Shown: positions 20,039 to 26,506, counted from the first letter of the stretch. The stretch: DNA of 40,040 bases from Acidimicrobiaceae bacterium (GCA_027315045.1 DAHUZS010000075.1:1-40040); one strand, 5' to 3'. The notes: a model not told the origin generated them from the sequence alone. Numbers and translations: made by a program.

Positions 20039-21397
20039 CTACTCCGTGCGCCCGACCACCAGGGCGAGCACCTCGGCCACGTGCCTGGCACACACGTCGT
20101 CGCTGCGCGCCTCCACGTTGAGGCGCAACAGAGGCTCGGTGTTCGATGGGCGCAGGTTGTACCACCAATCGCCGTAGTCCACCGTGAGGCCGTCCAGGTG
20201 TTCGATCGCCGCTCCCTCGCCGGCCACCCGCGCGGCGACCAGCTCGACCACCCGGGCCGGGTCCTTCACCTCGGTGTTGATCTCCCCCGAGTCGGCGTAG
20301 CGGCGGTAGGGGGCGAGGAGCTCCGAGAGCGGCTCGGTGGAGGTGCTCATGAGCTCGAGCACGATCATGGCGGCGATGATGCCCGAGTCGGCCCGGAAGT
20401 TCTCGCGAAAGTAATAGTGGCCGGAGTGCTCACCGCCGAACACCGCCCCGGTCTCGGCCATGACCGCCTTCACGTAGGAGTGCCCGACCCTGGTCTTCAC
20501 CCCCACGCCGCCGAGCTCGGCGATGGTCTCGGGGACCACCTTGGAGCAGATCAGGTTGTAGAGGATGGTCGCCCCGGGGTGCTTCGCCAGCATCGCGGCG
20601 GCCACCAGCGCGGTGGTGAGCGAGCCCGAGACCGTCTGGCCCCGTTCATCGACCAAAAAGACCCGGTCGGCGTCGCCGTCGAAGGCGAGCCCCACGTCAG
20701 CGCCCCGTTCGAGGACCGCCCGCTTCAGGTCGACCAGGTTCTCCTCCTGGATGGGGTCGGCCGGGTGGGTGGGGAAGGTCCCGTCGAGGTCGGGGTAGAG
20801 CACGGTGAGCCCGAAGGGCAGCGGTCGGAAGACCATCGGAGCCACCAGTCCGCCCATGCCGTTCGCGGTGTCGGCCACCACCTCGAGGGGCCGGAGCGAG
20901 CCGAGATCGACGAACGAGCGGACGTGGGCTGCATAGGCCTCCAGGAGGTCCAGGTGGTCAGGCTCGGGCCCGGGCGGGCCGGTGGGCGGCTCTTCGAGGT
21001 AGCCCACGGCGAGACGTTGGATCTCGAGCAGGCCGGTGTCCCGGCCGATCGGGCGGGCTCCGGACTGGCAGAGCTTGATCCCGTTGTAGTGAGCCGGATT
21101 GTGCGACGCGGTGAACATGGCCCCAGGGGCGTCGAGTGTGCCCGAGGCGAAGTACAAGAAGTCGGTCGAGGCCATCCCGAGGTCGGTGACCGCAGCCCCG
21201 GCGGCGCGGGCCCCCTCGGAGAAGGCTTTGGAGAGCTCGACCCCCGACGGCCGCATGTCCCGGACCACCAGCACCCGGCCCGCCCCGGTGAAGGTGGCCA
21301 CGGCCGCGCCGATGGCCCGGCAGAGCTCGGCATCGAGTTGGTCTGGATAGGTGCCCCGGACGTCGTAGGCCTTGAAGACGCCTGCAGGATCGCCCAT
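20039..21397 (-). CDS. Phosphomannomutase/phosphoglucomutase
   Basis: A 452-residue alpha-D-phosphohexomutase that interconverts hexose-6- and hexose-1-phosphates. The four domains are visible: AYDVRGTYPDQLDAELCRAI near the start, the phosphoserine loop TASHNPAHYNGIK with Ser98, the metal loop AFDGDADRVFLVDE with Asp240/242/244, the sugar-binding GGEHSGHYYFRE, and the phosphate-binding WYNLRPSNTEPLLRLNVEA. ManB activity is most likely given the PGI/PMI gene in the same operon, but PGM activity cannot be excluded. The ATG at 21397 is preferred over an upstream start at 21481, since the family begins at this point. TACGCT lies 9 nt upstream of the ATG without a Shine-Dalgarno, suggesting a leaderless mRNA. 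Confidence 0.92.
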   Translation of the reverse strand: MGDPAGVFKAYDVRGTYPDQLDAELCRAIGAAVATFTGAGRVLVVRDMRPSGVELSKAFSEGARAAGAAVTDLGMASTDFLYFASGTLDAPGAMFTASHNPAHYNGIKLCQSGARPIGRDTGLLEIQRLAVGYLEEPPTGPPGPEPDHLDLLEAYAAHVRSFVDLGSLRPLEVVADTANGMGGLVAPMVFRPLPFGLTVLYPDLDGTFPTHPADPIQEENLVDLKRAVLERGADVGLAFDGDADRVFLVDERGQTVSGSLTTALVAAAMLAKHPGATILYNLICSKVVPETIAELGGVGVKTRVGHSYVKAVMAETGAVFGGEHSGHYYFRENFRADSGIIAAMIVLELMSTSTEPLSELLAPYRRYADSGEINTEVKDPARVVELVAARVAGEGAAIEHLDGLTVDYGDWWYNLRPSNTEPLLRLNVEARSDDVCARHVAEVLALVVGRTE

Positions 21398-21406
21398 GGC
21401 GAACAG

Positions 21407-21412
21407 AGCGTA
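21407..21412 (-). promoter_or_regulatory. -10 box (TACGCT) of the phosphomannomutase operon
   Basis: On the minus strand TACGCT ends 9 nt before the ATG at 21397. It matches TANNNT and there is no Shine-Dalgarno, so the transcript is probably leaderless or nearly so. Confidence 0.4.
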
Positions 21413-21482
21413 ACCGAGGCCCGCAGGTGGAGACCCTCCCTCTCCGCCCAAGGCTCGGACCGGCGCACGAGGGCCCGCCAAC

Positions 21483-22039: not shown

Positions 22040-23284
22040 GTGACCTCAGCCGAACAGACGATCACGATCGCCACCAGTGACCACCGGCAGGCGTCCTGGG
22101 GGTCGAACTCGCAGATCGCACTGGCAGTCCTGGCCGGAGAGTGGCTCGCGGTGCTCCTCTACTGCCTGGCGACCCCACGAGGCCCGCACCGCAGCACCAT
22201 CGAGACGGAGGCGCTGATCAGCGCTTTCGTGCTGCTGGCAGCGCTGCCGGCGTCGTTCCGGATGGTGACCCGGAACGGGCGGAACTCCTATGCGCTCTCT
22301 GCCGCCCTCGCGTCGGGCCTCGCCCTGGCGGTCTGCGTCCACCTCGACGGCGGGATCCGCAGCCCGCTCTTCTTCCTCATCGCCCTTCCGGTGGTGGCAT
22401 CGGCGCTCACCCTGCCGGGTTGGGGTGCAGCGACCTGCGGAATCGCCGGGGCGCTCGAGTTGGCCGTCGTCTCGTTGGTCGACCCCAACCTCGGCCACTC
22501 CGGCAGCGAGCTGCTCGTGGGCGCCAGCCTCCTCTTCGGCGTCACGCTGGTCGCTCTGGTGTCGGCCCACTCCCGGGCCCGCCTCGAGTCGCTGAACGAC
22601 TCTCTGCTCGGCCAACTCGACGAGCTGGCCGACACCGACCCCCTCACCGGATGCCTCAACGACCGGGTCTTCACCGCCCATCTGGAGGCTGAGATCGACC
22701 GCTCACTGCGCTACGGCGAGCCGCTCAGTCTGCTCGTCGTCGACGTCGACGGGTTCGGGCAGTACAACGAGACCTTCGGTCACGCCGCCGGGGACGCGGT
22801 GTTGGTCGGGGTCGGGTCCCTGCTCCAGAACATGGTGCGAACCACCGACGTGGTCGCTCGCCTCGACGGCGACCGCTTCGCCGTGCTCATGCCCTCGACC
22901 TCGCTCGAGGACGGCCGGGCCGACGGCGCCGGGCAGGTGGCCAGGCGGGTCATCGCCGCGGTAGGGGCCTCCGACCGGCTCGGTATCGCCCTCAGCGTGG
23001 GGCTCTCCGCCCTCGACATCGACACCCCCTCGGCCGAGCGCATGCTCGAGGACGCCGAGACGGCTCTCGTCCAGGCCAAGAGGGAGGGGCCGGGAGGGAT
23101 CGCCGTGAACCCGCCACCGGGTGTACGGCTCATGAGCTTCGCCTCCGAGCCGGTGCGCGCCGCCTCGGACCCCGCCGGCCCCAACCCCATCCGGGCCCGC
23201 AAGATCTCACGGGCCCGGCGGGCGGTCTTGTGGTCCTGGAGCTCGACGACCCACCGCTCCGCCAACGGGTCGAACGGCCACTGA
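22040..23284 (+). CDS. Membrane GGDEF-domain protein with degenerate active site
   Basis: A 414-residue protein with five or six membrane helices (about 26-175) and a GGDEF domain (about 195-355). The domain has TDPLTGCLNDRVFTAHLEAE, SLLVVDVDGFGQYNETFGHA and GDAVLVGVGSLL, but the catalytic GGDEF is replaced by DGDRF at 276-280, with Asp for the first Gly and Arg for the Glu. The inhibitory I-site RxxD is retained as RTTD at 267-270, five residues upstream. It is therefore likely a c-di-GMP receptor or signalling pseudo-enzyme rather than a diguanylate cyclase. The final 45 residues are basic and disordered. The GTG at 22040 has AAGGAG at good spacing, so this gene is leadered. Bases 21880-22039 hold AT-richer promoter DNA and no gene. 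Confidence 0.88.
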   Translation: MTSAEQTITIATSDHRQASWGSNSQIALAVLAGEWLAVLLYCLATPRGPHRSTIETEALISAFVLLAALPASFRMVTRNGRNSYALSAALASGLALAVCVHLDGGIRSPLFFLIALPVVASALTLPGWGAATCGIAGALELAVVSLVDPNLGHSGSELLVGASLLFGVTLVALVSAHSRARLESLNDSLLGQLDELADTDPLTGCLNDRVFTAHLEAEIDRSLRYGEPLSLLVVDVDGFGQYNETFGHAAGDAVLVGVGSLLQNMVRTTDVVARLDGDRFAVLMPSTSLEDGRADGAGQVARRVIAAVGASDRLGIALSVGLSALDIDTPSAERMLEDAETALVQAKREGPGGIAVNPPPGVRLMSFASEPVRAASDPAGPNPIRARKISRARRAVLWSWSSTTHRSANGSNGH

Positions 23285-23375: not shown

Positions 23376-24350
23376 CTAGAAGACCCCGAAGCGGATGATG
23401 GAGGCCACCCCGAAGAGGAAGCACCACGCAACGAAGGGCACCAGGGTACGGGTCCGGAACCACCGGCTGAGGAAGATGACAGCGATCAACGAGGTGGCCG
23501 CGGTGGCCAGCGTGCCGGCCAAGAGCTCCGGACGGATCCCGTGGCCGAGCGGACCCAGTGCGTCGCCGATCTTCAACGCTCCGGCAGCGAAGATCACCGG
23601 CGTCGACAGCAAGAAGCTGAAACGGAGGGCGTTCTGCCGGTTCAGTCGCCGGAAGATCCCACCGGTCATGGCCACACCCTCACGGCTGATGCCGGCCAGG
23701 AGCGCGAGAGCCTGAGCGGCGCCGATCACCGCGCTCGAGATCACCCCGATGAGCGAGAGCTGGTGCACGGCGGCGTCGTCGATCGCCACGATGTGAGTGT
23801 CGCGGAACCGTCGGCGACGCGGCGTGGCCTCGGTAGCGAGCGCCAGATGGCGCTGTCGCCGGGTCTGGATCTCACCGGCGGCCAGGATGCAGCCGTTGGC
23901 CATCAGGAATCCGGCGGCCGCGACCGGCTTGGCGAAGAGGACCCGGAACTGGTGCTCGAAGACCAGCCCCAAGATCCCCACCGGGATCGTCGCGATCACG
24001 ATCAACCAGGCCAGGCGCTCGTCGTCGCTCAGGTTGTGCCGATGGGGGATGGCGGTGAAGAACCCGGTGATGAGACGGACCCACTCTTTGAAATAGAAGC
24101 CGAGCAGGACCACGGCGGTGGCAAGGTGCAGGCCGACGATGAACGCCAGGTACGGGCTCTCGGCCTGGGACTCCTGCTTCACGAGCAGGGCCCAGGTGCC
24201 CCCGAACCACGAGGGGACGAGCACGGTGTGCCCGAGGCTCGAGATGGGGAAGAGCTCGGTCAGGCCCTGGATCAGGCCGATCACGATGGCCTGGAACATG
24301 TTCATCTTGTAGATGCCGACGTGGGCGGCGGCCACGAGCACCTGGGTCAC
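23376..24350 (-). CDS. uppP: Undecaprenyl-diphosphate phosphatase-like protein (UppP/BacA family)
   Basis: A 324-residue polytopic membrane protein of the UppP family, which removes a phosphate from C55-PP to recycle the lipid carrier of wall synthesis. The first active-site motif is IGLIQGLTELFPISSLGHTV, keeping the second Glu and the His but with Gln at the first Glu and Leu for the usual Thr. The second motif, AGISREGVAMTGGIFRRL, keeps the Arg but has Ala for Pro and Glu for the second Ser. FSFLLSTPVIFAAG follows as usual. A basic loop (TRRQRHLALATEATPRRRR) interrupts the middle. The GTG at 24350 has GAGGAG 6 nt upstream. It lies 27 bp downstream of the DedA gene, in the BlaI-M56 operon. 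It is a divergent but probably active UppP. Confidence 0.85.
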   Translation of the reverse strand: MTQVLVAAAHVGIYKMNMFQAIVIGLIQGLTELFPISSLGHTVLVPSWFGGTWALLVKQESQAESPYLAFIVGLHLATAVVLLGFYFKEWVRLITGFFTAIPHRHNLSDDERLAWLIVIATIPVGILGLVFEHQFRVLFAKPVAAAGFLMANGCILAAGEIQTRRQRHLALATEATPRRRRFRDTHIVAIDDAAVHQLSLIGVISSAVIGAAQALALLAGISREGVAMTGGIFRRLNRQNALRFSFLLSTPVIFAAGALKIGDALGPLGHGIRPELLAGTLATAATSLIAVIFLSRWFRTRTLVPFVAWCFLFGVASIIRFGVF

Positions 24351-24377
24351 GGTCGGCTCCTCGGATCGTGGCGGTCC

Positions 24378-25013
24378 TCAACCCGCACTGGAAGAAGTCT
24401 GCCCGAGTAGCTGAGCCCGGCGCCGACGCAGCAGCCACCAGGCGATGACCCCCACCGCCACCACGGCGATGGCGATACTCGTGTCACCGAACGCTGAGGC
24501 GACGTTCGACCAGTTGGCGGCGAGGCCGTAGCCGGCGCCCGCCAGGGCGAAGGTCCACGGCAGGCTGCCGAGCAACGTGAAGAGCGCGAACCAGCCGATC
24601 GGCATCTCGGCCACCCCGACCGGGAGGCTGATGAAGGTCCGGACGACCGGGAGGACACGACCGATGAGCACCGCCACCGCGCCCCGGCGGGCGAAGAAGG
24701 CCTCGGCCTTCTCCAGGTGGTGGCGGCGCACGAAGACGTAACGGCCGTAGCGCTCGACGAGCGGACGACCGCCGATCCGTCCGACGGCGTAGGCGATGAG
24801 CGCGCCAAGGAGGTTGCCCAAGGCGCCCCAGAGCGCCACGCCGACCAGGTTGACCGACGGGTGGCCGGCGGCCAGCAACCCCCCGGCCAGCGCCCCGCCG
24901 AAGAGCATGATCACCTCGCTCGGGATGGGGATGCAGGCCGACTCGAGCACCATGAGCCCGAACACCGCCAGATAGCCGTGGTGGAGGACCTGCGTGGTGA
25001 GCCAATGGGTCAT
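24378..25013 (-). CDS. DedA family membrane protein
   Basis: A 211-residue DedA/SNARE-associated family protein. Landmarks are VLESACIPIPSEVIMLFGGA near the start, LGALIAYAVGRIGGRPLVER, and the conserved FFARRGAVAVLIGRVLPVVR followed by TFISLPVGVAEM. Several membrane segments follow, with a basic RRRRAQ tail. Some DedA proteins have been identified as undecaprenyl-phosphate flippases, which fits the UppP-like gene 27 bp downstream. The ATG overlaps the M56 protease stop by 4 bp (ATGA), giving translational coupling. Substrate assignment to C55-P is inference from family and context. Confidence 0.9.
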   Translation of the reverse strand: MTHWLTTQVLHHGYLAVFGLMVLESACIPIPSEVIMLFGGALAGGLLAAGHPSVNLVGVALWGALGNLLGALIAYAVGRIGGRPLVERYGRYVFVRRHHLEKAEAFFARRGAVAVLIGRVLPVVRTFISLPVGVAEMPIGWFALFTLLGSLPWTFALAGAGYGLAANWSNVASAFGDTSIAIAVVAVGVIAWWLLRRRRAQLLGQTSSSAG

Positions 25014-25987
25014 GGATGCTCGCTCGCTTTCGCGCTGATCGGGGTCGGAGGGAATGGGACCGGTGCCGAGGTGCCATAGGCGCGCTCGGCCCGCTGGAAC
25101 AGGTCGTTGGTCTGGCTGAGGGCGCGGACAGCGGCACCTGCCGGCACCAGCGCCAGCACGGCCAGCGTCGCCGTCAACAGCGTTCGGCGACCGAGGGGGG
25201 GCCGCAGGAGCGCCTCGACCCGCAGGGCCTCCCCCGGGCCAGCCGCGGCCATCGTGGGTGCGGCCGGGATCTCCCTACCGCAGACCCGGGCCACGTGCCC
25301 GATGGTTCGGGCCACCAGGGCGCGGTCGCCGACCAGCCTCGCCGCCCGTTCGTCGGCCCATCGCTCGGTGGCCAGACCGATCGCCCCGCGGGCCGGCCTG
25401 AGCACGGGGTTGAGCGCACTGGCCAGCGAGACCGCCGCCCGGTGCAGCTCGTGGCGCCCGTCGAGATGGGCCTGCTCGTGGGCCAGCACCACCCGGATCT
25501 CCGATGTGCTGAGCGCTTGAAGCAGCTGCTGGGCGGCCACGATCCGGCCCGGCCAACCGGGCAGGGCGAAGACGGTCGGGCGTTCGTCGGGCAGGACCAC
25601 GAGCGCCCCCATCGAGCGACGGGCCAACCGCCAGGCGTCGGAGAGCGCCCGGGCCTCTCGCCAGGCCGCCTGGACGAGCAGCAGCCCCTGGCCAGCCAGC
25701 ACGACGGTGCCCAGCGCGAGGATCGCCGCCGGCACGGTGACCCGGGCCCGAACGAGATGGGCCGACCAGTGTCCCATCGCCGCCACCGGTTCCCACTGGC
25801 CGAGCAGCACCACGAAGAGCACGAGCGGCAAGGCGACCGAGACGGCGGCCAGGACGAGCGAGCCGAGCGACAGGGTCCACGCGGCGAGGCACGCCGGGGC
25901 GCGGCGGGCCACCGAGGGGGCGAGCAGGGCGAAGCCGGCGCACGACACCAGCGCGGCTCCCGACCAGATGAGCAACGAGGCGCTCAC
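25010..25987 (-). CDS. M56-family membrane metallopeptidase (BlaR1-like, no sensor domain)
   Basis: A 325-residue membrane protease with helices at about 4-25, 35-62, 84-107 and 268-290. The zinc motif HEQAH is at 170-174 in VVLAHEQAHLDGRHELHR, with a likely third ligand in the ERWADERAA helix (208-216). BlaR1/MecR1 proteins have this domain plus an extracellular penicillin-binding sensor; here the protein ends soon after the last helix, so no beta-lactam sensor is present. It should cleave the BlaI-type repressor encoded just upstream in response to an unknown envelope signal. The GTG at 25987 overlaps the BlaI stop by 4 bp. A longer open frame upstream is antisense-like read-through of the blaI region and is excluded. 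Confidence 0.9.
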   Translation of the reverse strand: MSASLLIWSGAALVSCAGFALLAPSVARRAPACLAAWTLSLGSLVLAAVSVALPLVLFVVLLGQWEPVAAMGHWSAHLVRARVTVPAAILALGTVVLAGQGLLLVQAAWREARALSDAWRLARRSMGALVVLPDERPTVFALPGWPGRIVAAQQLLQALSTSEIRVVLAHEQAHLDGRHELHRAAVSLASALNPVLRPARGAIGLATERWADERAARLVGDRALVARTIGHVARVCGREIPAAPTMAAAGPGEALRVEALLRPPLGRRTLLTATLAVLALVPAGAAVRALSQTNDLFQRAERAYGTSAPVPFPPTPISAKASEHP

Positions 25988-26343
25988 CGCCCTCCCTCCC
26001 CCTCGAGCGCCTGCCGGAGAGCCTCGAGCGCCCGACGGTCCAGGCCGGCCACGAACTGGCTGAGGACCCCGGTCCGGTCGCGCTGGTCCTCGAGCAGTGC
26101 CCGCATCCGGCTGGCCACCAAGCCGGCCTCGTCGAGGACCGGACGGTAGACGTAATTGCGACTGACGAGCTCCCGGATCACCGCGCCCTTGGCGTGAAGG
26201 CGAGCCAGGATGGTGCTCACGGTCGTGTGCGCGAGCCCGCCCCCGAGGCGTACGCGCACCTCCTCGGCCGACACCGGCTCGGGAGATGCCCACAGCACCG
26301 CCAGCACCTCGGCCTCCAGCCTGCCCGACGCCCGCCGATCCAT
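25984..26343 (-). CDS. BlaI/MecI/CopY family repressor
   Basis: A 119-residue winged-helix repressor. RLEAEVLAVLWASPEPVSAE, EVRVRLGGGLAHTTVSTILA and RLHAKGAVIRELVSRNYVYR match the DNA-binding domain of BlaI; the rest is the helical dimerisation domain that M56 proteases cut (FVAGLDRRALEALRQAL). The ATG at 26343 is chosen, preceded by AAGGAAAGG; an upstream ATG at 26406 would lie across the operator. A CTACA-N4-TGTAG palindrome sits 35 bp before the start. The gene heads a four-gene operon with M56 protease, DedA and UppP-like genes. Confidence 0.92.
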   Translation of the reverse strand: MDRRASGRLEAEVLAVLWASPEPVSAEEVRVRLGGGLAHTTVSTILARLHAKGAVIRELVSRNYVYRPVLDEAGLVASRMRALLEDQRDRTGVLSQFVAGLDRRALEALRQALEGEGGR

Positions 26344-26378
26344 GGCCCGAACCCTTTCCTTCTGGGGCCCGAAAACTA

Positions 26379-26392
26379 CTACAGGGATGTAG
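26379..26392. promoter_or_regulatory. BlaI-type operator
   Basis: CTACAGGGATGTAG is a perfect 5-bp palindrome with a 4-bp centre, matching the TACA/TGTA core of known BlaI/MecI operators. It lies 35 bp upstream of the repressor ATG, where it would block transcription of its own operon. Confidence 0.65.
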
Positions 26393-26506
26393 AAGAACGA
26401 GCCCACCAGGGCGCCCGGCCGACTGCGTCAGCCGAAGGGACCTGGTCGGGCCGCTGCCGTGCTCCTTCGATACGGAAAAGGACCCAGGGTGGATAGAACT
26501 CGGCAA

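Follow-up and report, generated by a model that had tools for sequence, protein, structure and literature searches.

The operon described here is probably the complete local form of a regulon in which a BlaI repressor and an M56 protease control C55-P recycling in Actinobacteria, a reading based on gene content, operator distribution, the M56 clade and catalytic residues. The operon lies in a stretch of 40,040 nucleotides (the window) from a 2.3-Mb Acidimicrobiaceae assembly (147 contigs, 93% complete). A preliminary description of the window had proposed that the four genes sense envelope stress and boost C55-P recycling. BlaI-M56 control of this recycling is well supported by gene neighbourhoods, by the exchange of UppP for PAP2, by the M56 clade and by operator-led finds, but the exact four-gene order turned out to be sporadic.

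The operon, its operator and its products

Genes for BlaI, M56, DedA and UppP were recovered on the minus strand with Pfam matches, as described beforehand (Table 1), and the 4-bp overlaps said to couple the first three are present (GTGA at 25984-25987 between blaI and m56, ATGA at 25010-25013 between m56 and dedA). The first GTG of uppP lies 27 bp past dedA, its likelier start being an ATG 45 nt further in, at 24305. Sigma-70 promoter and terminator scans gave no match. Nearby, a GGDEF protein gene (window 22040-23284, plus strand) converges on uppP, and a phosphoglucomutase/phosphomannomutase gene lies at 20039-21481 (minus strand); neither shows any sign of operon membership. The blaI gene of the operon is the only one in the source genome, which holds two UppP copies, the second 48% identical to that of the window, and three DedA matches. 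Since UppP and DedA also occur together, some 1.3 kb from each other, elsewhere in the genome (G000:C117) and in congeners, the window dedA and uppP are additional copies.

Table 1. Features of the operon, in window coordinates.
Feature	Position	Strand	Description
blaI	25984-26343	-	119 aa winged-helix repressor; Pfam Penicillinase_R 2e-19
m56	25010-25987	-	325 aa sensorless membrane metalloprotease; Pfam Peptidase_M48 (M56-type) 9e-10
dedA	24378-25013	-	211 aa; COG0586/UptA-like predicted C55-P flippase; Pfam VTT 2e-23
uppP	23376-24350	-	324 aa; UppP/BacA undecaprenyl-diphosphatase; Pfam BacA 2e-57
BlaI-type candidate operator	26377-26394		minus strand reads TTCTACA-TCCC-TGTAGTA; 13/14 fixed bases

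The BlaI-type palindrome noted earlier ahead of the operon (26379-26392) is confirmed as the core of a larger site, which departs from TACTACA-N4-TGTAGTA by one mismatch, is unique within the window and recurs unchanged in the congener L248. Every other site in the genome has at least three mismatches, and shuffled windows are expected to contain 0 such operators. Diverged versions are kept before the operons of L027, L028, L036 and L039. The half-site consensus was derived by visual inspection of a palindrome scan and then tested genome-wide; a literal operator regular expression and a generic palindrome score were dropped as not discriminating. The most likely start of BlaI is the ATG at 26343, which places the operator some 35 bp ahead of the coding sequence. 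The protein is predicted to have a palindromic operator ahead of its own operon, as is typical of the BlaI/MecI family. The other family trait, a Penicillinase_R winged-helix domain across the whole protein, is also present (residues 7-114, 70.5 bits against a cut-off of 22.6). The full-length protein contains no cysteine and thus has no CopY metal site: the C-terminal CxCxxxxCxC motif is absent from it, and the CopY model TIGR02698 scores 27 bits against a cut-off of 122. Alignment by eye places a conserved Phe (QF or RF; QF-V in the window protein) at the equivalent of the cleavage site, which in staphylococcal BlaI is N101-F102 (PMC9834060).

Pfam assigns the protease to M48, not M56. It nevertheless has the traits of the M56/BlaR1-MecR1 family, being a membrane gluzincin with HExxH, a downstream Glu and a BlaR1-like fold. 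HExxH and ExxxDE are invariant in its clade, corresponding to H170, E171, H174 and E208 (also D212) in the window protein. When its AlphaFold model (pLDDT 82) was compared with the PDB by Foldseek, BlaR1 was the best match, with a probability of 1.00 but an E-value of 0.09. In this model, the chain runs on for only about 19 residues past its last helix, in a low-confidence tail, indicating that the BlaR1 penicillin-binding sensor domain is missing, as had been claimed, and that the protein is not a BlaR1 sensor-transducer proper.

The window DedA is a predicted C55-P flippase. Its best NCBIfam model is UptA (1e-36, 127 bits, under the model's cut-off of 250), it carries the acidic pair in the first re-entrant region and the RxxxxxR motif in the second that mark COG0586, and residues E24, E33, R119 and R125 agree with the key residues described in PMC10127716. 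The window UppP matches the E. coli UppP structures 5oon and 6cb2 and has the catalytic motifs (E/Q)xxxE, SSxGH and SR, which are kept in all intact relatives compared; the Gln replacing the first Glu (QxxxE) is common to most of them. In one congener, the UppP orthologue (L242, G004:C10) consists of two short pieces in different frames and is apparently a decayed copy.

Conservation across Actinobacteria

A conserved BlaI-M56-DedA-UppP neighbourhood had been anticipated, and a DedA-led search of public genomes, yielding 43 loci, recovered this order besides the window in L026/L248, L028 and L039, four genomes in all, with BlaI-M56-DedA in L027 and L036. The order is thus real but sporadic, and the conserved unit is gene content plus operator. 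Within the window genus, M56 is present in two of seven genomes, and other congeners have an orthologous UppP or DedA alone, without the operator. Across a range that spans Acidimicrobiales, Actinospica, Actinoallomurus and Streptomyces, related BlaI-M56 pairs adjoin DedA and a C55-PP phosphatase of one type or the other, UppP or PAP2, in no fewer than four arrangements. Actinocrinis and Actinospica have PAP2-DedA-BlaI-M56, and one Streptomyces has the divergent M56-BlaI<>DedA-PAP2; PAP2 follows BlaI-M56 in L061 and is divergent from these genes in L027. PAP2 and BacA/UppP both act as C55-PP phosphatases but belong to unrelated families (PMC9876793), and fusions of DedA with PAP2 are on record (PMC9876793, PMC10127716). 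That two unrelated families of the same activity are interchanged suggests that their shared function is selected and that the link to BlaI-M56 follows function.

When 298 genomes of the taxonomic order of the window were scanned from the BlaI side (about 88 BlaI genes), seven BlaI genes had UppP at a distance of up to about 4 kb, against 0.3 expected (P ~3e-8), and three had DedA nearby, against 0.5 expected (P 0.015); both estimates use rough copy numbers and background rates and ignore kinship, the loci compared being phylogenetically non-independent. A separate BlaI-M56-UppP association occurs in L188, L206 and L232, with UppP of the EGxTE type in the first two and a fragmentary match only in the third. 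As their M56 proteins fall elsewhere in the tree described below and no operator is present, we treat these loci as an independent recruitment.

A tree of 84 M56 rows groups the lipid-linked members of these lineages in a single 11-row clade (UFBoot 100/SH-aLRT 99), in which L230 is the sole member without lipid-gene neighbours. The clade grows to 23 rows in a quick tree of 133 rows (SH-aLRT 99), taking in Streptomyces proteins that adjoin TerD/TerB, while L322 (G578, BlaI-M56-DedA) and L342 (M56-PAP2) lie outside it. Clade membership is associated with lipid genes at a Fisher p of 3e-7 with all members and of 0.009 without those reached via the DedA query, as several lipid-linked members were. 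Neighbouring M56 clades are found mostly beside copper genes (DUF305, multicopper oxidase, CopC/D, P-type ATPase).

Other BlaI-M56 loci came to light alongside this clade. Among the BlaI loci L159-L214, many BlaI-M56 pairs adjoin copper genes, some with Lgt, and TACGACA-N3-TGTCGTA-like palindromes were seen by eye in a few copper-linked loci (L090, L200). A distinct BlaI-M56 clade of the order (L211, L212, L218, L220, L226, L231, L233, L235 and L237) is accompanied by genes for TlpA/AhpC-type redoxins and for an unassigned protein of about 290 aa, joined in some loci by a pyridine-nucleotide disulphide oxidoreductase, and is probably another rewired BlaI-M56 regulon. In Streptomyces (L323, L325-L331), BlaI-M56 genes of the lipid-linked M56 clade adjoin TerD/TerB in several loci, and TTCTACA-N4-TGTAGAA-type sites lie right ahead of TerB or TerD in L325, L329 and L331, pointing to a possible BlaI-controlled Ter stress regulon.

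The regulon was also approached from the operator, with a search blind to gene content (TWCKACA-N4-TGTMGWA, at most one mismatch) in 12 genomes carrying these systems. The pattern occurred at 62 sites and its reversed form at 11; in shuffled sequence, sites of at least 13/14 occur at 0.006 per 10 kb. In Actinospica, the known locus has three sites and a divergent DedA, and further sites precede DedA (L360), PAP2-BlaI-M56 (L362) and a stand-alone UppP (L363), with a fourth near a phosphodiester glycosidase gene (L361). In the L027 genome, sites lie ahead of BlaI-M56-DedA, PAP2, a glycosyltransferase gene and a separate BlaI-M56-UppP operon (L359). One site separates DedA-PAP2 from BlaI-M56 in Streptomyces TRM68367 (L392), two lie between divergent PAP2 and BlaI-M56 in Actinoallomurus (L394), and a 14/14 operator immediately precedes DedA in the DedA-UppP locus L055. 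No site of 12/14 or better was found at 18 loci with DedA/UppP genes and no adjacent BlaI. Several others of the 62 sites have neighbours that are unrelated or outside the examined set, and the TTCGACA-type sites look like chance occurrences. A strict search across the phylum returned only nine sites in 396 genomes (control pattern, six), indicating that the TTCTACA-type operator is rare; the nine include that of the window and several that accompany the Ter-linked M56 subclade in Streptomyces, where TerB/TerD are adjacent wherever neighbours were identified.

Two further kinds of gene recur at these loci. Glycosyltransferase genes lie behind or next to operator-controlled PAP2/DedA (L027:8374-9732, L394:1053-2261), which hints that the regulon includes a polyprenyl-linked glycan. 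Zip or OFeT/GDT1-type metal transporter genes adjoin DedA/UppP/PAP2-linked BlaI-M56 loci or operators (L028:2481-3359, L061:3467-4306, L391:4832-5590, L394:4369-5145).

Candidate mechanism and alternative readings

Drawing on what is known of these families for repressor binding, BlaI cleavage, flipping and dephosphorylation, we infer the following scheme. BlaI dimers would bind TACKACA-N4-TGTMGTA operators and repress blaI-m56-dedA-uppP and, elsewhere, PAP2 genes, a separate uppP or a separate dedA. Once activated, the sensorless membrane M56 would inactivate BlaI, probably by cutting its C-terminal region at the conserved F-V site, and loss of BlaI would derepress the operon. On the outer face of the membrane, UppP would dephosphorylate C55-PP, and DedA would return C55-P to the inner face, the operon supplementing the other genomic copies with an inducible set. 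We think that the inducing signal is most likely damage to the envelope or a disturbance of the C55 lipid pool. More tentatively, and with the balance tilting against it, the sensorless M56 itself may sense C55 carriers, through a shortage of C55-P or a build-up of C55-PP/lipid II; the system would then be a feedback circuit, with recycling capacity set by the lipid pool through BlaI cleavage. The copper-linked sister clades and the Ter-linked Streptomyces loci indicate that the BlaI-M56 pair is not intrinsically a lipid-carrier regulator and that the inducer could differ.

Indeed, these copper-linked relatives, with the transporter genes near L028, L061, L391 and L394, keep metal stress as the chief rival: the operon would respond to copper or a similar metal, DedA and UppP would form one arm of metal tolerance, and BlaI-M56 would sense metal-induced envelope or redox damage, as the sister clades probably do. 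The names of several carriers likewise suggest acidic or metal-rich habitats. However, no copper-gene family searched for was found closer than 4 kb to the window operon or to the clade members linked to DedA/UppP, the operator is confined to this operon in the source genome, the Actinospica operator-led finds are UppP, PAP2 and DedA and include no metal genes, and the window BlaI is free of cysteine. We therefore consider the metal reading unlikely.

The closest solved structure to the window BlaI is 2g9w, which we take to be Rv1846c of Mycobacterium tuberculosis, and this, with the BlaR1 match of the M56 model, would suit a BlaR1-type beta-lactam resistance operon in which DedA and UppP are accessory tolerance genes and sensing occurs in trans, for example by a PASTA kinase. 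The M. tuberculosis BlaR1 homologue is sensorless too, and a kinase has been suggested as a substitute (PMC9834060). By contrast, the window M56 lacks a penicillin-binding sensor, and neither a beta-lactamase nor a PBP gene was identified at the locus or among the operator-led finds, which leaves this reading improbable. Slightly less credible still is chance or ordinary clustering, with BlaI-M56 merely transcribed beside DedA and UppP and not regulated with them as a unit: the sporadic presence in the genus and the orthologous DedA and UppP found without BlaI in relatives would fit, but the 4-bp overlaps, the repeated independent association with its phosphatase swap and the enrichment above expectation speak against it, and the operators right ahead of separate UppP, PAP2 and DedA genes already disfavour it.

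Comparison with known systems

The supply of C55-P limits cell-wall building and is a target of bacitracin- and amphomycin-type antibiotics. The window system draws on the enzyme families of known recycling, UptA/DedA flippases and UppP/PAP2 phosphatases, with key residues kept, but places an additional copy under a dedicated repressor-protease pair. The open-access full texts searched contained no report of BlaI controlling UppP, PAP2 or DedA, most subscription papers being outside this scope. The parts are known, and, in agreement with the preliminary description, we found no account there of one operator joining C55-P recycling genes to BlaI and a sensorless M56.

The staphylococcal BlaI-BlaR1 (bla/mec) system likewise comprises a BlaI-family repressor, with Phe at the cleavage position, and an M56 membrane zinc protease, and its operator is a palindrome of the same TACA/TGTA type. 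It differs from the window system in the penicillin-binding sensor domain, absent from the window M56, and in its targets, beta-lactamase or PBP2a instead of genes for a C55-PP phosphatase and a C55-P flippase. The copper-linked BlaI-M56 loci of the same order share the regulator families and, in some of them by eye, a related half-site (TACGACA-N3-TGTCGTA), but have M56 proteins of other clades and other target genes. M. tuberculosis BlaI is known mainly via the beta-lactamase BlaC. With its BlaR1 homologue Rv1845c, Rv1846c forms a pair of an actinobacterial BlaI and a sensorless M56 like that of the window (PMC9834060), but unlike the latter showed no UppP/DedA/PAP2 operon link in our analysis. 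In many Actinobacteria, the BlaI-M56 pair appears from gene content and operators to have been rewired to switch on lipid-carrier recycling genes, and the system also offers a handle on what BlaI-linked sensorless M56 proteases, such as that of M. tuberculosis, respond to.
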